In this document: in pieces, positions 57 through 50,735 of the stretch | How the letters are laid out: each line of letters starts with the position of its first letter | How positions within the stretch are numbered: the first letter of the stretch is position 1 | Assembly: GCA_947624785.1 (NCBI GenBank) | Contig: CANQLV010000013.1 | Location: forward strand, 17,791-81,790 | DNA from: Akkermansia muciniphila | Lineage (GTDB): Bacteria > Verrucomicrobiota > Verrucomicrobiia > Verrucomicrobiales > Akkermansiaceae | Reading direction: 5' to 3' | Length of the DNA stretch: 64,000 nucleotides | Made by a program: the position numbers and the translations under genes | The notes under the pieces: model-generated | The model's database searches: none | What the model saw: only the letters and a program-made list of their open reading frames with translations | What the model was told of the DNA's origin: nothing

Positions 57-656
57 CTATGCCGGAACATGCCTGCCGGGCATTTCTTCCCGCGCCCGGC
101 GGGTCATGGCGGCAATCAGCTCCGTCTTTCCCTCCGTATAGGCGTCCCGGTTGAATTCGAACTTCTCTTTTAAAGAGCGTTTTAGGGCGGCGTACCTTTC
201 CGCCTCATCCGGATGCGCGGCCAGGTAATCCCGGAAGTATAATTCATCCCAATCCAGGCAGGGCCGCACATGCAGATGGAACGCCTGGCCCCGGAAGCCG
301 TCCGCGGCATAGCCCTTCACCAGAACCAGGCGCATCCGCGCTTCGTCCCGGTGCATTTCCCGGTAGCCGCACCTTTCCAGCAGCGGAAGCGCTTCAAGGA
401 CGAATGAATCGGGCCGCACTTCCAGCAGAATGTCAATGGTGGGTTTGGCCGCCAGGCCGGGAACGGACGTGCTCCCGAAGTGGGAAAGGCGGCCAATGCG
501 CGAGACGGGCACCACTGATTCCAGCATCTTTTTCTCCCTCCGGTAGATTTCCGCCCACTCCGGCCTGGAATCGCTCAAGATGACGGGAAACAAGCGCCAG
601 AGTTCTTCAAGGCTCATGGCGGACAGGGCGGCTTCATCCGAAACACGGCGGGACAT
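57..656 (-). CDS. GrpB/UPF0157 family nucleotidyltransferase-like protein
   Basis: ORF with family-typical 'RIGRLSHFGSTSVPGLAAKPTIDILLEV' motif. Confidence 0.85.
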   Translation of the reverse strand: MSRRVSDEAALSAMSLEELWRLFPVILSDSRPEWAEIYRREKKMLESVVPVSRIGRLSHFGSTSVPGLAAKPTIDILLEVRPDSFVLEALPLLERCGYREMHRDEARMRLVLVKGYAADGFRGQAFHLHVRPCLDWDELYFRDYLAAHPDEAERYAALKRSLKEKFEFNRDAYTEGKTELIAAMTRRAREEMPGRHVPA

Positions 657-886
657 TCCCGGAAGATAAGGGAGACGGAGCCGTGAGTCAACCTCCCCGG
701 CGTTCCTGCCCCTCCTGTAGCCGGGGAACCGCGGCCCTTTTCCTCCCGTTCCCTATTTTCTCCGTTTGCGGCGGCCCTGCGGACGGCAGCGCAGGGCCTG
801 GTACCCGGCCACGACAAAGGCGAAGGTGGTCACCGCCAGAAAGGAGCGGAACAGCCACGCCAGAAGTTCCCAGTAAATCTCCTGAG

Positions 887-1099
887 TCATGCGGAAGGTT
901 TTTTACCGGAGTCCGGGACGTTGCCCAGATCTTCCCGGAGACGTTTGACGGCACAGGCAATCAGGGTGGCTTTATCCAGCTGACAGCGTTCCACGTTCAG
1001 AGCGGCCGCTTCCGCATCCCGGAAGAAATGGACGGATAACGGCATTTTCCCCTTGATTTGAATTTTTTTCTGACTCTTTTTCTTATTTCCCGTCTTCAT
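887..1099 (-). CDS. small basic hypothetical protein
   Basis: 70-aa ORF, Lys-rich N-terminus, not overlapped by a better ORF; no family recognised. Confidence 0.4.
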   Translation of the reverse strand: MKTGNKKKSQKKIQIKGKMPLSVHFFRDAEAAALNVERCQLDKATLIACAVKRLREDLGNVPDSGKKPSA

Positions 1100-1255
1100 A
1101 AAAATCCTTCTTTTGGTGCAATAAGGGCTTCAATAACCCGCTTACGATGCGATAATGCACCTGAAACGGTATTCCAGTCAACGAAAATATACCGTTAAAA
1201 TGATATTATGCAAAAAAGGTTGAAAAATCGCACCATTTTCGTTACAAAGAGATGC

Positions 1256-1756
1256 ATGAGTGAGAATCAGGATGAACTCAAAGTGCAGATCAAGGCATGG
1301 CTGAAACAGCAGAACATTTCCCGCAACGCATTTGCGGAGGAATGCTTCGTGTCTCCCAATACGGTCCGCAACTGGCTTGCCAAGGTAGCCATTCCCAAAG
1401 ACAAGGAAGCTCTCATCCGGCTCATGATGGAAAAGACGGAAAGGGAGAAAAAACTGAAGGAGGCGGCAAGAGCCCATTGGAAACCCTTCGCCGTCATGCT
1501 GAGCGCCGAGGATTACAAACTTATCGAAGAAGCCGCCAGAAGAGACAACATGACGGTGGAGGAATGGGCGGAAGCCACCCTGATCAAGGACGCCCAGAAG
1601 AGGATGAAGAATTATTACGACGACGAAAGCAGCCTCCCGAACGACATCCCTCTGGCAGCGGAAATTCCGGAGGAGTACGGCGCTCCCAGGCCTTCCTCCT
1701 CTTCCAGTTCTTCTCCCTCCGAACCTTCTCCTCCCCGCCGCAGGCCGCGGCAATAA
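1256..1756 (+). CDS. putative HTH DNA-binding protein with disordered Ser/Pro/Arg C-terminus
   Basis: 'WLKQQNISRNAFAEECFVSPNTVRNWLAK' resembles an HTH; followed by a terminator at 1824. Confidence 0.65.
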   Translation: MSENQDELKVQIKAWLKQQNISRNAFAEECFVSPNTVRNWLAKVAIPKDKEALIRLMMEKTEREKKLKEAARAHWKPFAVMLSAEDYKLIEEAARRDNMTVEEWAEATLIKDAQKRMKNYYDDESSLPNDIPLAAEIPEEYGAPRPSSSSSSSPSEPSPPRRRPRQ

Positions 1757-1823
1757 ACCATGGCGGATATGGCAGGCGCGCCCGTGCAGAAACGCCGCCG
1801 CCCGCGAATTCCCCCTTTGGCTG

Positions 1824-1858
1824 AAAACCCCCGGCTCCCTGCGGTTCCGGGGGTTTTT
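1824..1858 (+). terminator. rho-independent terminator
   Basis: aaaacccccgg-ctccctgcggtt-ccgggggttttt. Confidence 0.8.
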
Positions 1859-2045
1859 CCTGCCAAGGCATCGGGAACGGCGCAAACACTTGCGGCAGCC
1901 GGAACCGGGATGAGCTTCCGCAAACGATTGAAATCACGCGTGACCAGCGGGCACGCTGGGGATATTAGCTGCCGCAGGGGCTTGCCCGCTCCAGTCCGCT
2001 CTTTTTTCTTGCCTGACGAGCTCAAGGAGTTCTATCATATTGACC

Positions 2046-3619
2046 ATGAGTCAACTACTCTGCCTATTGTTCATTTCCGCCTTCTGGCTCCCGCTTTCCG
2101 CCCGTGCGGAGGCGGCTCCGCCGGCCGTTCCCTCCATTGCCGTCAGGATGGTGCATCCGGACAGCCTGGAGCTGGACCGGGAAGGGAAACCGGTTCCGGA
2201 AGGATACACGCCTTATGTGTATGAATTCCGGGACCGCCACGGAAAAATGCATCGGGAACGGCTGTTTCTGAAAGACGAACCCGTCATTACGGAAACGGAG
2301 GTGGAACGTGCAGGCGTCGATCCGGGCACGCCGGGGCATCTTAACATCACCCTGAACACGCCGGGAGGGAGGGCCATGAAAACGGCTACATCCGCCATGA
2401 GGCTGGGACATGACAGGCTGGCTGTCGTCGTTCAGGGAAAAGTCAATTCGGCCCCGGTGGTTCAGGCCATTCTTTCCAATACCTTCGTCATCTCCGGACT
2501 GGACAAGGCGAATGAAGCTGAAAACCTGGCGGAATTGCTCAACCGCAGGGCTGCCGCCGGAAAGGTAGCTTCCTTTACTCCCCGTGACCTGGCCCTGTAC
2601 GCCGTTCATCCGGACAGTGACCGGCTGGTGAAGGAAGGGACGCTTTCCGTACCGGGCTACCGGCTCTGGAGCCGCCCGGGCGCGGGGGAAAGAAAAAACG
2701 CGGAGAAGGAATACCTGTTTTTGGGGAACGCTCCCATCGTCACCGGGGATTACGCCCGGTCCGCACGCCCTAATCTGGATTATCCGGGGCATCTGGACAT
2801 CGTTTGGAATGAAGAAGCGTACAGGAACCTGGAACAGGCCTGCGCCGCCCTCCGGCCCGGCAAGGACAGAATGGCCGTGCCATCCTGTCCACGCCCGTAT
2901 TCCATAAAATGCCTTCCCACGCCACCCTCATTCCCGTGCCGGATGATGACCGCCGGCTGGATGATCTCTGCACGGCCATCAATACCCAGATTCCGCCGCT
3001 CACGGAACAGCAGCAGAGGAAGGCGAAAGAGGAGCTGGCCGTTTATCCCGTGCATCCCCGCAGCACGGAGCTGGAACAGCGGTTCCTCCCGGAACTCCGG
3101 CAGGGGAAAACCATTCACCTGAAAAGCGGGTTCCGCTCCGTCCCCTACACCCGCCCTGATTTCCCGGAGCCTGTTCCATCCTGGGCCTTCATCCGGACGG
3201 AATCCCTGATCGGCCCGGAGGATGTCCGGCACGCGGCACGGGAGCAGGACGGCACGATTGTGTACAGCCTGCTGCCCCAGGCCTGGAAGAAGCTGCGTTC
3301 CTTCATGGACGGAAGCCCGGAAGGAACAGTAGCTGTGGCGATCGTCTTCCAGGGGAAGGTTTACCAGCTGTTCAAGATCAGAGACAGGTTGCTGCAGATG
3401 TGGAGAATCCCCGTGATTACAACCATTCAGCCCATTTCCGCCATTTACATCCTCACCCCGGAGGAGGAACGGCGCATGCACCGGGAATTCCTTTATTACG
3501 TCTTCAGGGACATGCTGTTCCCCGTCAGCCCGTGGTTCTTTAAAAACTGCGTTCCTTTCCGTACGCTGGGTGAACGGAAGCCTTTTTTAATGATTGATTC
3601 CGGCCTGGAGCGCCCCTGA
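2046..3619 (+). pseudogene. secreted protein with three SecD-P1/head-like repeats, interrupted by an apparent 1-nt frameshift near 2876-2884
   Basis: ORF 2040-3122 (frame 3) reads '...RPGKDRMAV' and homologous sequence resumes in the frame of ORF 2909-3619 ('AILSTPVFHKMPS...'); N-terminal signal peptide 'LLCLLFISAFWLPLSARAEA'. Confidence 0.7.
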
Positions 3620-3667
3620 TTTTTTTGCTCGAACCGGGGGCGGCGCTCCGCTATATTGCCTCCCGTT

Positions 3668-5314
3668 ATGGCAACACCGGATTTTCATTACCAGGATCCT
3701 TTTCCCATTGAAAAGGACGACACCCAGTACCGCCTCATCACGTCCGACTACGTGAGCGTGGGGGACTTTGAAGGACACCCCATGCTGAAGGTGGAACCGG
3801 AGGGCCTGCGCCTGCTGGCCGCGGAAGCCTTCCATGACGTGGCCTTTTTCCTGCGCCCCGCCCACCTGAAGCAGGTGGCCGCCATTCTGGACGATCCGGA
3901 AGCCAGCGCCAATGACAAGAGCGTGGCCCTGACGATGCTCCGCAACGCGGAGGTGGCCTCCGCCGGAATCCTGCCGTTCTGCCAGGACACGGGCACCGCC
4001 ACCATCGTGGGCAAGAAGGGCCAGCAGGTCTGGACCGGCTGCGATGACTGCGAACAGCTTTCCCACGGCGTTTACGACGCCTACACCCAGAACAACCTGC
4101 GCTATTCCCAGACCGTGGCGCTGGACATGTATACGGAGAAGAACACCGGCACCAACCTTCCCGCCCAGATTGACATTGAAGCCGTGGAAGGCATGAAGTA
4201 CTCCTTCCTCTTCGTCGCCAAGGGCGGCGGCTCCGCCAACAAGACCTACCTTTACCAGGAAACGAAGGCCCTGCTGAACCCGGCCACGCTGAAGAAGTTC
4301 CTGGTGGAGAAGATGAGCACCCTGGGCACGGCGGCCTGCCCGCCCTATCACATCGCCTTCGTCATCGGCGGCACCTCCGCGGAAAAGTGCCTGAAAACCG
4401 TGAAGATGGCCTCCACGAAGTATTACGACAACCTGCCGACCACGGGCAACGAGTACGGACGCGCCTTCCGCGACCTGGAGCTGGAAAAGGAATTGCATGA
4501 AGAAGCGTGCAAGCTGGGCCTGGGCGCCCAGTTCGGCGGCAAGTGGTACGCGCTGGACGTGCGCGTCATCCGCCTGCCCCGCCACGGAGCCTCCTGCCCG
4601 GTGGGCCTGGGCGTCTCCTGCTCCGCGGACCGCAACGCGAAGGCCAAGATCACGCCGGAAGGCATTTTCATTGAACAGCTGGAAACCAACCCCGGCCAGT
4701 ACATTCCGGAAGCCCTGCGCATGACCTCCAGCGAGGCCGTCTCCATTGACCTGAACCGCCCGATGAAGGAAGTGCTGGCGGAACTGAGCAAGTACCCCGT
4801 CACCACGCGCCTGAGCCTGAACGGCACCATCATCGTGGCTCGGGACATCGCCCACGCCAAGCTGAAGGAACGCCTGGAAAAGGGTGAAGGCATGCCCCAG
4901 TACATGAAGGACCATCCCGTGTACTACGCCGGTCCGGCCAAGACCCCGGAAGGGTATCCCTCCGGCTCCTTCGGCCCCACCACGGCGGGGCGCATGGATT
5001 CCTACGTGGACCTGTTCCAGGAAAACGGCGGCTCCATGATCATGATCGCCAAGGGCAACCGCAGCCAGCAGGTGACGGACGCCTGCCGGAAGCACGGCGG
5101 CTTTTACCTGGGCTCCATCGGCGGCCCCGCCGCCATCCTGGCCAAGAATAACATCAGGAAGGTGGAACTGCTGGAATACCCGGAACTGGGCATGGAAGCC
5201 ATCTGGAAGATTGAGGTGGAGGACTTCCCCGCCTTCATTCTGGTGGACGACAAGGGCAACGATTTCTTCGCGAAGATCCGCGAAGGCTGGGCCTGCGCCG
5301 GCTGCGCCCATTAA
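3668..5314 (+). CDS. fumA: class I (Fe-S) fumarate hydratase
   Basis: Full-length; '[17 protein letters not shown]', 'CPVGLGVSC', '[15 protein letters not shown]' class I fumarase motifs; likely start is ATG at 3668. Confidence 0.92.
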
Positions 5315-38932: not shown

Positions 38933-39224
38933 GCCCCATGCTCTCATACCTGCCCCGCCTTCTGCAAGCAGCAAACCCCAGTGTGCGGCCCACCGGATCG
39001 GAAATCTCCGGCACGGCGCGGCCTCCCGCGCTCTTCCGCCGGGATTTCCGCATCCCGGAACGCTCCGTTTTCCACGGATTCCGGATCCGGAACCCTACAC
39101 CTTTTCCAGAGGCAGGCGCAGGAGCGGCCAAAAGACGGTTTTTACCCGTCCACGCGCATTTTTTCCCATCTTCCGGAATTCCGGCGGCGGTTCTAATAAA
39201 CATTGACACTGACGGCTAAAAACG

Positions 39225-39405
39225 CCATTAAACACGCCGAAGCAACGGGGAATTCCGTGAGAACCGGAAACAGTCGCGCTGCGGTATCGGGTTACAAACC
39301 CTCAAGGAACGCTTTTCCGCCAGCGTTCCGGTCAGCCAGTCCTCCCATTCCGGAGGGTGAAGGCGAGGGGGAGGTTGGAGACCCGGAGTCCGAATATCCT
39401 TGCTC
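39225..39405 (+). promoter_or_regulatory. probable cobalamin riboswitch (RF00174-type)
   Basis: 'acGGGGAAttccgtgagaaccggaaacagtcgcgctgcggta', hairpin ggaacgc..gcgttcc, 'gTCAGCCAGTCc', 'gggtGAAGGCGa', 'gttGGAGACCcgg'; directly upstream of cbiK. Confidence 0.82.
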
Positions 39406-39429
39406 CGGTTCACCATACCTTATCAACGC

Positions 39430-42339
<2,910 letters not shown>

Positions 42340-42345
42340 CTTTTC

Positions 42346-43008
42346 ATGACCGCCGAATTTAACATCCGCTGGGACATGCCCCCCGCCGCCATCGAGGCAG
42401 AGAGTTTTGCAACCATTGAACGGGAGTTCCGGGGCTGGAAAGAGCTGCCGCCTGCCGAATGGAAGGTCATGCGGAGGCTCATCCACACTACGGCGGACCT
42501 TTCCATAGGCACAGGGCTGGCGTTCCGCCATGACCCCATTCCCTCCGCCCTGGAGGCGCTCCGCAGGCACTGCCCCATCTTCTGCGATTCCAACATGATC
42601 CGCGCCGGACTTTCCGTGGAACGGCTGAGGCGCGCCCATCCCGGCTACGCCCGGGAGGACATCCACTGCCATATTTCCGATGCCGACATTGCGGAACAGG
42701 CCAAATCCACAGGCAGGACGCGCGCCATCTGCGCCGCGGAAAAAGCGCGCCCCATCCTGGACGGAGCCATCGTCCTCATCGGGAACGCCCCCCTTTCCCT
42801 GGCCCGCATCGCCCGGTACGCGCTGGAGGAAGGCGTGAGGCCCGCCCTGATCGTAGGCATGCCGGTGGGCTTCGTCAACGTGGTGGAGTCCAAGCTGCTG
42901 ACCGGAACGTGCCCCGTCCCTCAGATCGTGCTGGACGGGCGGCGCGGCGGCAGCGCCCTGGCCGTCACCACCCTGCACGCCATTCTGGAAAACCTGTCCG
43001 CCTCCTAA
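42346..43008 (+). CDS. cbiC: precorrin-8X/cobalt-precorrin-8 methylmutase
   Basis: 'RRLIHTTADLSIGTGLAF', 'IFCDSNMIRAGLS', 'IGNAPLSLARIARYALEEGVRPALIVGMPVGFVNVVESK'. Confidence 0.95.
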   Translation: MTAEFNIRWDMPPAAIEAESFATIEREFRGWKELPPAEWKVMRRLIHTTADLSIGTGLAFRHDPIPSALEALRRHCPIFCDSNMIRAGLSVERLRRAHPGYAREDIHCHISDADIAEQAKSTGRTRAICAAEKARPILDGAIVLIGNAPLSLARIARYALEEGVRPALIVGMPVGFVNVVESKLLTGTCPVPQIVLDGRRGGSALAVTTLHAILENLSAS

Positions 43009-43040: not shown

Positions 43041-44159
43041 ATGTCCGCCCCCCTCCGCCAGCCGCTCCGGAAAGGATTTTCCACAGGAGCCAATGCCGCC
43101 GCCGCCATCACGGCCGCGTGGAAAACGCTGAACGGGGAAAAAATCAACGGGCCTCTTCCCCTGCTTTTCCCGGACGGGGAGACGAGAATGCTTCCTCTGG
43201 CAGACAGCGCGCCGGGGTTCGCCCGCATCGTCAAGGACGGCGGGGACGATCCGGACTGCACCCATGGCGCCGTGCTGGAAGCACGCGTAAGCGCAGCCGT
43301 GCCGGAGCAGGCCGCCCCGGAAGATTATCTCCTGCCCATCGGCCGGGCCCTCCTCATCCTGCGCTCCGGCGGCGGCATAGGCCTGTGCACGCTGCCGGGC
43401 CTGGACTGCGAACAGCACAAATGGGCCATCAACCACGGACCGCGGCGCATGATGATGGACAACCTGGCCCGCGCCGGGATGCGGGAAGGGTGCTGGCTGG
43501 CGGAAATCACCGTGCGGGACGGAGAAAAGCTTGCCGGGAAAACGCTCAATCCCCTGCTTGGCGTGGTGGGGGGCATCTCCATTCTGGGCACCAGCGGCAT
43601 CGTGCGCCCGTACAGCCATGAAGCCTATATCGCCACCATCCGCATCTGCGTGCGCTCCACCCGGCTTTCCGGCTTCAGGAAGGCTGTGTTCTGCACGGGG
43701 GGGCGCACCGCCGCGCTGGCGAAGTCCCTCCTGCCGGAATACCCCTCCATCTCCTTCATCTGCATCGGGGACTTTATTGCGGAAAGCCTGCAAAGCGCGG
43801 GGGAGCAGGGGATGGAGGAAGCCGTGGTAGCCTGCATGCCGGGCAAGCTCTGCAAGTACGCCGCCGGATTCGCCAACACCCACGCCCACAAGGTGGCCCA
43901 GGACATGCCTCTTTTTCTCCGCACGGCGGAACGCCACGCGCCGCTCTCCGAGGAGGCGCGCCGGGGCATCCTGGCCTGTTCCTCCGTCCGCCAGGCGCTC
44001 GCCCTGACGCCGGAAGAGGCGCACCTTTCCATCTACCGCGGCCTCGCCGCAGAAGCGCAGCTCCAGTTCCAGCGCCACGTGCCCGGCCTTCCCGTCCGTT
44101 TCCTGATTTCCGGCTTCTCCGGCAACCTTCTTCTGGACATACCTCCATGCCTCCACTGA
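43041..44159 (+). CDS. cbiD: cobalt-precorrin-5B C1-methyltransferase
   Basis: 'LRKGFSTGANAAAAITAA', 'GGISILGTSGIVRPYSHEAYIATI'. Confidence 0.94.
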   Translation: MSAPLRQPLRKGFSTGANAAAAITAAWKTLNGEKINGPLPLLFPDGETRMLPLADSAPGFARIVKDGGDDPDCTHGAVLEARVSAAVPEQAAPEDYLLPIGRALLILRSGGGIGLCTLPGLDCEQHKWAINHGPRRMMMDNLARAGMREGCWLAEITVRDGEKLAGKTLNPLLGVVGGISILGTSGIVRPYSHEAYIATIRICVRSTRLSGFRKAVFCTGGRTAALAKSLLPEYPSISFICIGDFIAESLQSAGEQGMEEAVVACMPGKLCKYAAGFANTHAHKVAQDMPLFLRTAERHAPLSEEARRGILACSSVRQALALTPEEAHLSIYRGLAAEAQLQFQRHVPGLPVRFLISGFSGNLLLDIPPCLH

Positions 44160-45364
44160 CTATCTTTTCCTGCGGCACAGGCCCGCTTCAGCCGTCCCCG
44201 GCCCTGCTTGACAAACTGGCAGAGGCGCAGAGCATTTACGCTTCCTCCACCCTGCTGGAAGCCTGCCCCTCTTCCAATGCCCGGCTCATCCCCATCGGCA
44301 GGAACGCCAGGGAACAGGCGCGGGAAGCCCTGGAAGAAGCGCGGCACGGCAACAAGGTGGTGGTGCTGGCCTCCGGAGACGCCCTGTTCCATGGCATGGG
44401 CGGCACACTCCAATCCCTGGCCTGTGACGGAGACCGGCTGGAATTCATCCCCGCCCCCACGGCCTTCCAGGCCCTGTTCCACCGCCTGGGCATGCCGTGG
44501 GACCGCGCCCGCTGCTTCAGCGCGCACAGCACGGAATACATCCCGTGGGGGGAAATTCTGGCCCAGCCGCTCGCCGTCATCTACGGAGGCCATCCCTTCA
44601 CCGCCTGCCGCCTGGCCGCGGCGGCCATGGAGTTCCATCCGGCAGCGGCGAAGCGTTCCGCCGTGGCGGCCCAATGCCTGGGAACGCCTGACGAGCGCAT
44701 TATGCAAGGCCCCCTGGCGGAGCTGGCCAGGGAGGAATGCGCCCCCACCTCCATGCTCCTGCTGCTGCCGGACAAGCGCCCCGGAGCCGCGCCCGTCCTG
44801 CCGCTGGGACTTCCCGCGGATTTTTATGAAAAGGAGAACAACCTGATTACGGCGGAGGAAGTGAGGGCGGTCATCCTGTCCAAGCTGCGCCTTCCGGCCT
44901 GGGGGGTACTGTGGGACGTGGGAGCCGGGAGCGGCTCCATCGGCCTGGAAGCCGCCGCCCTGCGCCCCGGACTTTCCGTGTACGGGCTGGAACGGCAGGC
45001 TAGCCGCCTGGAACTGATGCGCCGGAACTGCCGGCGCCTGGGCTGCGTGAACTACACCTGCATGCAGGGAGAAGCGCCGGAGGCCCTGGACGCGCTGCCC
45101 AAGCCCGACCGCGTTTTCACGGGGGGAGGGGGCGCCGCACTGGAATCCATCATGCAGGCCTGTTTTAAAGCCCTGAACCCCGCCGGCCTTCTGGTAGCCT
45201 CCGCCGTGACCACGGAAAGCGAACACCTGCTTTACGGCTGGAACGCCGCCGCCCGCACGGGGATGTTCTCCCTGGACATCGCCTCCGAATCACCCATTGC
45301 CGGAACCTACCATCATCTGCGGCACGGCAACCGCATCACCCTTTTCACTTATTCCCGCACATGA
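44147..45364 (+). CDS. cbiET: CbiE-CbiT fusion (precorrin-6Y/7 C5,15-methyltransferase, decarboxylating)
   Basis: CbiE-type N-terminal half plus 'AVILSKLRLPAWGVLWDVGAGSGSIGLEAA' CbiT half. Confidence 0.92.
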   Translation: MPPLTIFSCGTGPLQPSPALLDKLAEAQSIYASSTLLEACPSSNARLIPIGRNAREQAREALEEARHGNKVVVLASGDALFHGMGGTLQSLACDGDRLEFIPAPTAFQALFHRLGMPWDRARCFSAHSTEYIPWGEILAQPLAVIYGGHPFTACRLAAAAMEFHPAAAKRSAVAAQCLGTPDERIMQGPLAELAREECAPTSMLLLLPDKRPGAAPVLPLGLPADFYEKENNLITAEEVRAVILSKLRLPAWGVLWDVGAGSGSIGLEAAALRPGLSVYGLERQASRLELMRRNCRRLGCVNYTCMQGEAPEALDALPKPDRVFTGGGGAALESIMQACFKALNPAGLLVASAVTTESEHLLYGWNAAARTGMFSLDIASESPIAGTYHHLRHGNRITLFTYSRT

Positions 45365-47979
45365 ATACCACCCGTTTTCCCATCCACTTCATAGGAGCCG
45401 GCCCCGGAGCCGAAGACCTGATTACCGAACGAGGCGCCGCCCTCCTGAAGGAGGCCGACGTAGTCGTGTATGCCGGGTCCCTGGTCAACCCGGGGCACCT
45501 CAAACGCTGCCGCCCGGAGGCGGAACTTCATGACAGCGCCAGAATGAACCTGGAGGAACAGGTGGAGGTGATGGCACGGAGCGTGCTGGAAGGAAAAAAA
45601 GTGGTGCGCCTCCACACGGGGGACCCCTCCATGTACGGAGCCGTCGCGGAGCAATTCGACCTTCTGGATAAAAAGGGAATTGAATCCATCGTGGTGCCGG
45701 GAGTCAGCAGCGTTTTTGCGGCGGCGGCGGCCCTGCGCACGGAACTGACCTATCCGGGAATCGCCCAGAGCCTGGTGCTGACGCGCACCCCGGGCAGAAC
45801 GCCCATGCCCGCGGGAGAATCCTGCGAGGCCTTTGCCGGGACGGGAGCCACGCTGGCGTTCTTTCTCAGCGCGGGCAAGCTGGACGAATTGGCCGCACGG
45901 CTGGTCGCCGCAGGGAAATCCCCCGATACGGCGGCGGCCGTGGTGTACCGCGCCACGTGGCCGGATGAAAAAATCATCCGCGGCACGCTGTCCACCATCG
46001 CCGCGGAAGCGTCCCGCGCGGGCATCGGCAGGCAGGCCCTTATCCTGGTGGGAGACGCCATCGGCGCGCATGACTGCGGGCAGTCCCTGCTCTACCACGG
46101 CCAGTTCAGCCACGGCTACCGGAATGAGAAGGAAGACGAACGGTTCGACGGAAGCTGCGCGTTTTACGCCTTCACGGAAAAAGGAGTCCGCAAGGCGCAG
46201 GAGATTTCCCGGTCCCTGGGGAAAGCCGTCATCCATTCCGTAGGCAGGGACGGAGAAACGGAAGGCGCCACGCGGGTTTCCCCGGAGGATTTCGACCCAT
46301 TGCTTGCCCGGCAATGGAACCTGTTTGACGCGCACGTTTTCATCGGGGCTACGGGAATTGCCGTCAGGAAAACGGCTCCCCTGCTCCGGGACAAGGCCAC
46401 GGACCCGGCGGTAGTCTGCTGTTCGGAGTCCGGCTCCCACCTCATTCCCCTGCTTTCCGGCCACCTGGGCGGCGGCAACCGCCTGGCGCGCAGGCTGGCC
46501 CGCATCAGCGGCGGGGAGGCCGTCATCACCACCGCCACGGACACGCGGGGAATCACCGCCTTTGACGAAGCGGCGGCCAGGGAAAAGGCCTGCGTTCTCA
46601 ACCCGGACGCCATCAAAACCCTGAACGCCGCCCTGCTTGCCGGAGACGCCGTCTCCTTTTACGGTCCGCAGGAAATTCACGAACGGTACTGGCGGGACTG
46701 CCCCCAGGTTATTCCGGCGCGGGCGAATGGAGCGGAAGCCGCGGAAAAGCCGCACTTCCCCGCCGTTTATTGGGATGAAGAGCCCCCGGAACCTGTGGAG
46801 GGAACTGCCGCCCTGCTCATTCAGTCAGCCTCCTTCGTGCTTGGGATAGGCTGTAAAAAGGGAACGGACCCCGGGCTGCTGCAACAATACGCGGAAGATT
46901 TTCTTGCCCGGCAGGGAATCTCCCGGTTCCGTATCAAAGCCCTTTCCTCCTGCACGCTCAAGGAGCAGGAACCGGCCATTCTGGCCCTGGCCGCAACATG
47001 GAACGTGCCTTTCCATGTCTTTGAGGCCGCCCAACTGGACGCGGTGGAAATCCCCTCCCCGTCGGACGCCGTCTTTGAAAAAACGGGGACGCATTCCGTT
47101 TCCGAGGCTTCCGCCGTTCTGGCCTCCGGGGGAAAAATCAGCACGCCCAAAACCGTCTGCGGCGGAAACGTCACGCTGGCCCTGGCAACGTGCCCGCACG
47201 GCAGCCGGAACACGGCCCGTCAGGGAGCCGGAAACGTCATCGTCATCGGACTGGGGTCCGGGTCTCCGGACCAGCTCACGCCGGAAGCGGCGGCGGCCAT
47301 GGACAGGTGCACCTGCATTGCCGGCTACACCAAATACCTGGATTTCATCCGGGAACGCATCCACGGAAAAAAGATGATCCAGACCGGGATGATGGGGGAG
47401 GTTCCGCGGTGCATGGCCGCGCTGGAAGCGGCGCTGGACGGGGAAAATGTCTGCATGGTCTGCTCCGGTGACCCGGGCATCCTGGCCATGGCCGGGCTGC
47501 TCTACGAAATGAGGAAGGAAAACGAACGCTTTTCCCCGGTCCGCATTGAAGTGCTCCCGGGAATTACGGCGGCCAGCATATCCGCCTCCGCGCTGGGGGC
47601 ACCCCTCCAGAACGGCTTCTGCCTGCTGAGCCTGTCCGATCTGCTGGTCCCTGCGGAGGAAATCCGGGCCAACCTGGAGCAAAGCGCCGGAACGGCCCTG
47701 CCCGTGGTCCTTTACAACCCCGCCGGACGCAAGCGCCGCCATCTGCTGGAGGAGGCCCTGGATATCTTCCGGAACCAACGCGGGGGGCAAACCCTCTGCG
47801 CCTATGTGAAGCACGCGGGACGCCCGGCCCAGAAGAAATGGGTGGGCACGCTGGACGAGTTCCCGCTGGAGGACGTGGACATGTCCACGCTGGTGCTCCT
47901 AGGCGGCCCCCGGACCATCAGGGACGGAGACGTTCTCTTTGAACGGAGGGGCTACGCCGATAAATACGGAATATCCTGA
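45361..47979 (+). CDS. CbiF-CbiG-CbiH triple fusion (C11-methyltransferase / precorrin-5A hydrolase / C17-methyltransferase)
   Basis: CbiF 'FIGAGPGAEDLITERGAALLKEADVVVYAGSLV'; CbiG 'DAHVFIGATGIAVRKTAPLL..HLIPLLSGHLGGGN', 'GIGCKKGT'; CbiH 'VIGLGSGSPDQLTPEAAAAMDRCTCIAGYTKYL'. Confidence 0.93.
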   Translation: MNTTRFPIHFIGAGPGAEDLITERGAALLKEADVVVYAGSLVNPGHLKRCRPEAELHDSARMNLEEQVEVMARSVLEGKKVVRLHTGDPSMYGAVAEQFDLLDKKGIESIVVPGVSSVFAAAAALRTELTYPGIAQSLVLTRTPGRTPMPAGESCEAFAGTGATLAFFLSAGKLDELAARLVAAGKSPDTAAAVVYRATWPDEKIIRGTLSTIAAEASRAGIGRQALILVGDAIGAHDCGQSLLYHGQFSHGYRNEKEDERFDGSCAFYAFTEKGVRKAQEISRSLGKAVIHSVGRDGETEGATRVSPEDFDPLLARQWNLFDAHVFIGATGIAVRKTAPLLRDKATDPAVVCCSESGSHLIPLLSGHLGGGNRLARRLARISGGEAVITTATDTRGITAFDEAAAREKACVLNPDAIKTLNAALLAGDAVSFYGPQEIHERYWRDCPQVIPARANGAEAAEKPHFPAVYWDEEPPEPVEGTAALLIQSASFVLGIGCKKGTDPGLLQQYAEDFLARQGISRFRIKALSSCTLKEQEPAILALAATWNVPFHVFEAAQLDAVEIPSPSDAVFEKTGTHSVSEASAVLASGGKISTPKTVCGGNVTLALATCPHGSRNTARQGAGNVIVIGLGSGSPDQLTPEAAAAMDRCTCIAGYTKYLDFIRERIHGKKMIQTGMMGEVPRCMAALEAALDGENVCMVCSGDPGILAMAGLLYEMRKENERFSPVRIEVLPGITAASISASALGAPLQNGFCLLSLSDLLVPAEEIRANLEQSAGTALPVVLYNPAGRKRRHLLEEALDIFRNQRGGQTLCAYVKHAGRPAQKKWVGTLDEFPLEDVDMSTLVLLGGPRTIRDGDVLFERRGYADKYGIS

Positions 47980-48023
47980 CCTGACCCGGAAAGACAGCAT
48001 CCGCAGAGTTTGCCTGTTTCCCA

Positions 48024-49906
48024 TGAATAAGCCTTTTCACGCCTTCTGCATCGCCTCCACCCAGTCCGGGGGAGGCAAGACCACGGTATCCCTCGCCCTG
48101 ATGGCGGCGCTCTCCGTCCGGGGATTACGCGTGCAGGCCTTCAAGTGCGGTCCGGACTACATTGACCCCTCCTTCCACCGGCAGGCGACGGGATTGCCTT
48201 CCTTCAATCTGGACACGTGGATGATGGGGAAAAACGGAGTCCGCACCCAATGGGCGCGGCACGCCTCCTGCGCGGACATCGCCATTTGTGAGGGGGTCAT
48301 GGGCCTCTTTGACGCCAGATCGCCGGAAAGCCTGGAAGGAAGCACGGCGGACTGCGCCCTTACGCTTGGCCTCCCCGTCCTGCTGGTGGTTCAGGCGCGG
48401 GGCATGGCGGGGTCCATTTCCGCCGTCGTCTGCGGCTTCTCCCAACACCATCCCGGCCTGAACATCGCGGGCGTGATTGCCAACGGCGTGGGAAGCGCCG
48501 CGCATGCGGACCTTCTGCGCCGGGCGCTGGACCGCCACGGCATGCCGCCGCTGGTGGCGGCGTTCCCCAACAACTCGGAGTGGACGCTCCCGGAACGGCA
48601 GCTGGGCCTTGTTCCCGCAGAAGAGGAGGCCCGGCAGCAATCCTGGTTCCACCGGATGGCGGCGGAAACGGAAAAGCGCGTCAACTGGGAACTGCTGATG
48701 AACATCACGGAAAGCAGACGTCCGGAGCCGCTGAAAGTTCCCCTGCCGTCCGCTCCTTCCCGCGGGATTCTGGCCGCAGCCCGAGACAATGCCTTCTGCT
48801 TTTACTACGAGGACAACCTGGAACGGCTGAGGCAAACGGGCTGGGACATCACCTGCTTTTCTCCGCTGGAAGACGCGGCCCTGCCGGAAGGTGCCAAAGC
48901 CCTTTACCTGGGAGGCGGCTATCCGGAAATCTTCGCGGACCGATTGGAAGGCAATGAAGCCATGCGGAAGGCCATCCTGGACTTTGCCCGGAACGGCGGA
49001 GAAATCTTTGCGGAATGCGGGGGGTACATGTACCTCTGCAAGGAACTGGTGCTCCCCGACGGAACACGCAGGAACATGTGCGGCGTCATTGACGGAACGG
49101 CCCAGATGGGACAAAAGCTCCGTTCCCTGGGATACCGGGAAGCCGTAATGGAAACGGAAGCCCCGTTCGGCCTGCCTTCCACCCGCATCCGCGGCCATGA
49201 ATTCCATTGGTCCCGAATTGAACTGAACCGGCCCTACCCGCCCCTTTACACAGTGGCGGACAAGAATGGAAATACGAGCCGGGAAGGCGTGGCGGATAAA
49301 AACGTGAAAGCCGGCTACGTCCACCTGTACTGGGGAACGGAAATCCCGGACCACCTGCAGGAGCCCGAGCCGGGGCTGGGGCGCGTCATCCTGCTCAACG
49401 GAGCCTCCAGCGCGGGAAAGAGCACGCTGGCCCGGACCATGCAGCGCCTGATGAAGGAGGAGGCCATGATTTTCTCCATGGATGACTATCTGGCCATGAG
49501 CCGGGGAAGGCATGAAAACGCCCTGGACGCCGTCCGGGAAACCGGTCTGCCTTTCATTGAATCCTTCCACGCCGCCATTGCGGAGGCCGCGCGGAAAGGA
49601 GCCCTGGTCATCGTGGACCACGTCATCGGCGAATCCAGCGTTTGGGTCCGGGACCTGCTGAACCGCCTGAGCGGCATTCCCCGCTCCCTCGTCAGGGTGG
49701 AATGCCGTCAGGACATCCTGCTGGGGCGCGAGCGATGCCGTACCGACCGGACTCCCGATCCGGCCCACGCGGAACGCCAGCATGGAAGCATCCACCGTCA
49801 CTTTCCGCATGATTTATCCATAGACACCTCCGAAGCCACGCCCCAAGAATGCGCCATGGAACTTATCAACCGCCTGCCACGTGAATTCCTGATGCCGCAG
49901 GAATAG
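48024..49906 (+). CDS. cbiA: cobyrinate a,c-diamide synthase CbiA fused to a C-terminal CPT-like P-loop kinase domain
   Basis: CbiA 'STQSGGGKTTVSLALMAAL', 'KCGPDYIDPSFH', 'FAECGGYMYLCKEL'; C-terminus 'RVILLNGASSAGKSTLARTMQ', 'VIVDHVI', 'RVECRQDILLGRERCRTDRTPDPA..DLSIDTSEATPQECA' like chloramphenicol phosphotransferase family. Confidence 0.88.
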
Positions 49907-49966: not shown

Positions 49967-50494
49967 CTAAAACTCCACCTTCCGCTGCGCCTTGATCCCC
50001 TGCTGGAAGGCATGTTTGACGCATTCAATCCGGCTCACGGTATCAGCCATGGCGGCAACTTCCCCAGGGGCATCCCGGCCTGTCAGCACCACCACCTTTC
50101 CGGGAGCGGTTCTTTTCAGCGCATCCACGACTTCCTCAACAGGGATGAATCCATAATTCAGAGGGTAAAAAATCTCGTCCAGAATCACGGTTCCCACGGA
50201 TTCGTCCTCCAGCCTCTGCCGGGCCAGCCGCCACCCGTCACGGGCGGCGGAAGCATGGCGTTCACGGGATTTTTCATCCCTAGCGCGGCCCGTAAACCCG
50301 GCGCCGGAACACACCACCTCCGCATTCGGAAACTGCCGGAGGGCCACAACCTCCCCATAGGAACCGTCGTGCTTGATAAACTGAACCACGGCCACTTTCC
50401 CGCCATGCCCCAAAGCGCGCAGGGCCATGCCGAAGGCGGAAGTCGTCTTTCCCTTGCCGGGCCCGGTCAGAACAAGAATGCGGGAGCCTTTCAT
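49967..50494 (-). CDS. cobO: cob(I)yrinic acid a,c-diamide adenosyltransferase
   Basis: 'RILVLTGPGKGKTTSAFGMALRALGHGGKVAVVQFIK', 'VILDEIFYPLNYGFI'; convergent to the cbi operon. Confidence 0.94.
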   Translation of the reverse strand: MKGSRILVLTGPGKGKTTSAFGMALRALGHGGKVAVVQFIKHDGSYGEVVALRQFPNAEVVCSGAGFTGRARDEKSRERHASAARDGWRLARQRLEDESVGTVILDEIFYPLNYGFIPVEEVVDALKRTAPGKVVVLTGRDAPGEVAAMADTVSRIECVKHAFQQGIKAQRKVEF

Positions 50495-50735
50495 GCCCGG
50501 CATTATACAGGCCCCAAGGGTAATACCCAACCCAAATTCCCATGGATCCCCGACGTAAAATGCACTACCAATCTCCGCATTCCACTGCTGTTCAGCGAAA
50601 AATCATTTCTCCCGGCAGCAGAAAAATTCATGAAGCACAGATTCTCATGCCATCTTCGCAAACCTATGGGCAGACGTGAATAGAGCTTTACACAACCGCC
50701 TTCTTCACGGTAGCTTATGCCCGCGCTTGTTGCAT

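Follow-up and report, generated by a model that had tools for sequence, protein, structure and literature searches.

The window, the whole 64,000-nucleotide stretch of Akkermansia muciniphila DNA analyzed here, comes from a nearly complete, Akkermansia-like genome of 3.08 Mb (G000) and carries an anaerobic corrin-ring cluster on its + strand. The cluster begins with a CbiK-type cobaltochelatase (39400..40395; PF06180) and CbiL (40397..41104; TIGR01467), continues through a predicted membrane protein of 412 aa (41101..42339), CbiC (42346..43008; PF02570), CbiD (43041..44159; TIGR00312), a CbiET fusion (44147..45364; TIGR02467, TIGR02469) and a CbiF-CbiG-CbiH fusion (45361..47979; TIGR01465, PF11760/PF01890, TIGR01466), and ends with a gene that joins cbiA to a kinase domain (48023..49906). 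The CobA/BtuR corrinoid adenosyltransferase (49967..50530; TIGR00708) follows on the opposite (-) strand and is missing here in the type-strain lineage. Kirmiz et al. described the Akkermansia corrin-ring cluster without mention of the kinase, and the membrane protein whose gene separates cbiL from cbiC has been likened to a putative cobalt transporter (PMC6974653). This protein has no Pfam or NCBIfam match, is kept in another genome (G076) at 49% identity and is probably a cobalt transporter of no assigned family. Beyond cobA, the - strand at 51060-58069 holds very long open reading frames (969 and 1075 aa) that resemble multi-domain glycosyltransferase and sugar-nucleotide enzymes.

The fused gene lies in a frame that runs from 47939 to 49906 with no stop throughout. 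Its likely start is the ATG at 48023, giving a protein of 627 aa. The first part is a complete CbiA (cobyrinate a,c-diamide synthase; 48041..49339), with an NTP-binding CbiA domain (PF01656) and a GATase_3 domain (PF07685). The NCBIfam profile NF002204 covers residues 7-437 with a score of 483.6 bits (cut-off 254), and TIGR00379 spans residues 9-439. The 176 aa that follow contain a full-length kinase domain of the chloramphenicol phosphotransferase (CPT) type (49379..49873), in which Pfam PF07931 matches residues 453-617 over profile positions 1-170 of 172 at 107.8 bits (cut-off 22, E 6.8e-31), far beyond chance expectation. These matches confirm the original prediction of a complete CbiA followed by about 180 aa with CPT-family motifs, and every motif it quoted is found. 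The genome has no second CPT. A search for other CbiA-CPT fusions, which the prediction had proposed, places the arrangement in 8 Akkermansia genomes, and this recurrence shows that it is not an assembly artefact.

The kinase domain retains the elements expected of a P-loop kinase of this superfamily. In an alignment of 40 homologues, N8, G9, S11, S12, G14 and K15 are invariant in and around the Walker A motif GASSAGKS (49400..49423), as are Asp36 (49481..49483) and three arginines, R118, R122 and R125, of the lid motif RERCRTDR (49727..49750). Asp36 aligns with a conserved aspartate of the Streptomyces venezuelae CPT (1grq), which we take to be its catalytic base, Asp37. An AlphaFold2 model of the domain (pLDDT 92.1, pTM 0.88) finds as its top PDB match the S. 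venezuelae enzyme with chloramphenicol (1qhs), and together with the full-length profile match and the conserved Walker A, Asp and lid this makes the domain a member of the Pfam CPT superfamily. The two proteins share their fold (TM 0.78), Walker A motif, catalytic Asp and RxxxRxDR lid. They differ, however, in several respects: identity is 23%, the domain scores 62.7-67.7 bits against the chloramphenicol-phosphotransferase equivalog NF033114, well under the cut-off of 250, the acceptor-side segment from Asp36 to the next helix lacks about 10 residues relative to Streptomyces-type CPTs, and the gene context is that of cobamide synthesis. In a phylogenetic tree, all 12 cob-linked CPTs tested fall on one side of a branch with 100/100 support and a length of 1.06, whereas 43 other CPTs, including that of S. 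venezuelae, fall on the other. The second structural match, O-phosphoseryl-tRNA kinase (PSTK, 3adc), phosphorylates an amino-acid hydroxyl (seryl), but is larger, acts on Ser-tRNA(Sec) and shares 19% identity; this likeness is weak evidence, as the model gives comparable E-values with many P-loop kinases. Pfam and NCBIfam profiles give the domain no CobU match (PF02283, NF004469), and by profile, model and fold match it is a P-loop kinase and not a member of the GHMP fold.

Among 77 Akkermansia genomes, 17 encode a CPT. The same 17, and none of the other 60, encode a full-length CobD, fused to CbiP. The top matches of the CobD search in those 60 are ordinary aminotransferases and hisD-hisC-type fusions; long TIGR01140 matches were considered there as CobD and rejected, the two examined being hisD-hisC fusions. 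The 17 genomes are related and belong to a single part of the genus, and a small number of independent events may account for the 17/60 split. For one of them (G046), an assembly gap and a frameshift break the frame, so that only the presence of the kinase is stated. Eight of the 17 have the domain as part of a CbiA fusion, and nine have it as a separate protein. The 8 fusions coincide exactly with the genomes that have the corrin-ring marker CbiD, while all nine CbiD-less genomes keep an unfused kinase, and on a CobD-CbiP tree built without G045 this corrin-ring/fusion state requires three changes. Since nine of the 17 genomes have it unfused, the kinase is independent of CbiA, and the two share no reaction. 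The original prediction had taken the fusion itself as evidence for a cobalamin role; the role holds, but the fusion carries less weight than was thought, given these nine unfused copies. The predicted role of the kinase continues in cobamide salvagers that retain CobD, CbiP and CbiB.

Gene order points to the same part of the pathway. The kinase lies immediately upstream of cobD in four branches: A. glycaniphila, whose copy is a CbiA fusion as well, the genomes G001/G012/G046, G011 (UBA7331) and a contig, L087. In the first three, cobD is followed by cbiP and cbiB, and these neighbors (cobD, cbiP and cbiB) are those expected of an enzyme that makes the aminopropanol linker. In G045, the gene is located after cobA. 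A role in either the lower ligand or the linker had been envisaged for the kinase. The adjacency to cobD in four branches and its retention after corrin-ring loss favor the linker, and the lower ligand is disfavored.

Karcher et al. reported that cbiA is missing in A. glycaniphila and perhaps unnecessary for B12 (PMC8278651). Contrary to that report, A. glycaniphila does in fact have cbiA, as a CbiA-CPT fusion. In strain Pyt, the fused gene is split over the ends of scaffolds 92 and 114 (L084, L081), one of which carries a near-complete CbiA at 59% identity. Contig L087 likewise encodes a CbiA-CPT fusion (600-3749), which is 1049 aa long, has long Ala/Ser-rich insertions in its CbiA part and sits beside cobD. 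It is binned as Candidatus Bilophila faecipullorum; its CPT clusters with the Akkermansia copies, and it is probably a stray contig from an Akkermansia relative. A genome-wide scan found no other cob-linked CPT outside Akkermansia, although it used two Akkermansia-clade motifs that divergent cases could escape. CPT homologues in other Verrucomicrobiota have no cob context.

The remainder of the pathway was examined in the same genomes. A second cluster, on another contig of G000, encodes the fused CobD-CbiP, CbiB, CobS, CbiR and CobU, the last as a separate gene with an intact P-loop (G000:C9:92604). The equivalent cluster in G005, which we take to be a type-strain-like A. muciniphila genome, contains a CobT profile match; Mok et al. 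also reported CobT in the A. muciniphila cluster (PMC7733943). The steps that adjoin threonine phosphorylation are accounted for by CobD-CbiP, CbiB, CobS, CobU, CbiR and CobA in G000 and by CobT in the type-strain genome. The Salmonella L-threonine kinase PduX (EC 2.7.1.177) is a GHMP kinase, whereas the Akkermansia domain is a P-loop kinase. G000 has two GHMP kinases only, galactokinase and IspE, which leaves L-threonine phosphorylation as the known gap in the pathway. In the other 16 CPT genomes, the GHMP matches above cut-off are only galK-like and ispE-like, as assigned from frame length and score, with the galK-like match occurring twice in A. glycaniphila; in this search none of the 17 CPT genomes has PduX. 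A correlation of the kinase with missing cobU or pduX had been proposed: pduX is indeed absent throughout, but CobU is intact in G000.

Taken together, the sequence comparisons give good support to an ATP-dependent kinase that acts on a small molecule in the cobamide pathway, and not to an antibiotic-resistance gene, as originally predicted; the support comes from the exact co-occurrence with CobD, the adjacency to cobD and the retention after corrin-ring loss. With regard to substrate and reaction, we infer that the domain is a putative non-orthologous L-threonine kinase that replaces PduX and feeds CobD. We regard this assignment as likely, on the logic of consecutive steps (kinase and CobD), the operon context and the missing step. 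The association with CobD expected of an L-threonine kinase of cobamide synthesis (EC 2.7.1.177) is present here in both distribution and gene order. The domain would convert L-threonine and ATP to L-threonine O-3-phosphate, which CobD, encoded with CbiP in the other cluster, would decarboxylate to aminopropanol phosphate, and CbiB would then join this product to adenosylcobyric acid. Catalysis would resemble that of CPT, with the Walker A loop holding ATP, Asp36 activating the hydroxyl and the arginine lid closing. The fusion with CbiA looks like an arrangement for co-expression that derives from an operon of the order cbi...-cbiA-kinase-cobD-cbiP-cbiB. A. muciniphila requires L-threonine for growth (PMC5902328); its dependence on an external supply implies that the substrate is imported. 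The absence of PduX does not by itself point to a CPT, since other Verrucomicrobiota have CobD-CbiP but no CPT (e.g., G232, G351, G198; L188, L191, L193), and the GHMP matches examined there are galK-, ispE- and ThrB-like, among others, with no clear PduX. These lineages must use something else, and may hold another threonine kinase or a bifunctional CobD.

Several other kinase activities were weighed against these data. Of the substrates listed in the original prediction, threonine fits best. The main rival, because CbiR occurs in all 17 CPT genomes, is an alpha-ribazole kinase that rephosphorylates the alpha-ribazole released by CbiR for reuse by CobS. An enzyme of this kind is CblS, which stands in for a missing CobT and occurs with the transporter CblT. 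CbiR releases alpha-ribazole and Cbi-P (PMC7733943), but the CobT in the lineage's cluster makes alpha-ribazole phosphate de novo and serves that arm, and the kinase adjoins cobD, cbiP and cbiB rather than cobT, cobS or cbiR. As CbiR is present in all 17, its distribution does not discriminate. We consider an alpha-ribazole kinase unlikely. A kinase for (R)-1-amino-2-propanol would supply CbiB with the identical end product, directly from scavenged or endogenous aminopropanol and with CobD as a parallel route, and its association with a cobD-cbiP-cbiB cluster would be just as natural. CobD would then be dispensable, yet it is kept together with the kinase in 17 of 17 genomes, and the adjacency of the two genes in four branches fits consecutive steps, which makes such an enzyme quite improbable. 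A kinase retained by salvagers that lack corrin-ring synthesis could also act on adenosylcobinamide, but the intact CobU already combines this kinase with a guanylyltransferase, and the CbiR product Cbi-P is already phosphorylated (PMC7733943); there is very little chance that adenosylcobinamide is the substrate.

The family name, the S. venezuelae CPT as nearest solved structure and the unrelated contexts of CPTs in other Verrucomicrobiota would suit a kinase that really does act on antibiotics or xenobiotics and whose link to cob genes is accidental. It is hard, however, to reconcile this with an equivalog score of 67.7 against 250 bits, the separate clade behind its long and fully supported branch, the shortened acceptor-side segment and a distribution that tracks CobD exactly, and we regard it as very improbable. 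All of the association data are compatible with any late-pathway role, such as phosphorylation of L-serine to phosphoserine for ethanolamine phosphate and norcobamides, or regulation of either CbiA or CobD. Threonine phosphorylation is, though, the sole known missing step in these genomes, and a different late function of this sort has scant probability.

An L-threonine kinase of this type would resemble PduX in its proposed reaction and in its position upstream of CobD. The gap that it would fill is a general one, as most cobamide producers verified by experiment lack pduX (PMC6461909). Precedent for replacement exists in BluE of the Rhodobacterales, an L-threonine kinase described as a non-orthologous replacement of PduX (PMC8123684); its threonine kinase activity has been shown in a study that calls it a PduX homologue (PMC6249242), and the two accounts conflict. 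CbiA/CobB and enzymes of the aminopropanol arm also fuse readily, as in CobB-CobC type proteins (NF053748) and CobD-CbiP, but the partner of CbiA in Akkermansia is a kinase. What is new here is best explained as the apparent recruitment of a known fold, that of CPT, to a new pathway step. On balance, we favor a single recruitment of the P-loop kinase as a B12-linker L-threonine kinase, in the ancestor of the cobamide-handling Akkermansia, as a further unrelated solution to this reaction. An important gut bacterium thereby gains a named, testable threonine-kinase candidate. In a 2021 study, a cpt gene of A. muciniphila (COG3896) was counted as a defence gene and used to help account for a strain's protection in colitis (PMC8371549). 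This may be the same gene, and the assignment, if true, would correct a misleading cpt annotation.

The type-strain lineage preserves the kinase amid extensive gene loss. In four genomes (G005, G006, G007 and G044), the flanks of the locus align with the window, but cbiK through cbiFGH, most of cbiA, and cobA are deleted. What remains at the scar is an intact kinase, a degenerate piece of cbiA (aligned in G044) and about 70-88 bases from around the start of cbiC. The retained stretch corresponds to the end of the transporter gene and the start of cbiC (42285..42372, +), and in 4/4 genomes the former cbiC ATG lies in the frame of the kinase and opens it as a stand-alone gene. In G005, the stand-alone protein is encoded at 2,652,784-2,653,275. 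Stand-alone copies have dN/dS values of 0.14-0.30, similar to those of the fused copies (0.14-0.46, with the maximum from the closest pair), and are under purifying selection despite the loss of genes on either side. As an example of gene decay the lineage is instructive: the flanking genes are lost, yet one domain remains open behind a foreign start codon. Two independent losses of the corrin cluster have been proposed (PMC8278651). The type-strain-like genomes and G044 (contigs L051, L009, L011 and L057) have a common left breakpoint and scar, where window position 38975 meets about 42285. This suggests a single common deletion, unless recombination moved the scar.
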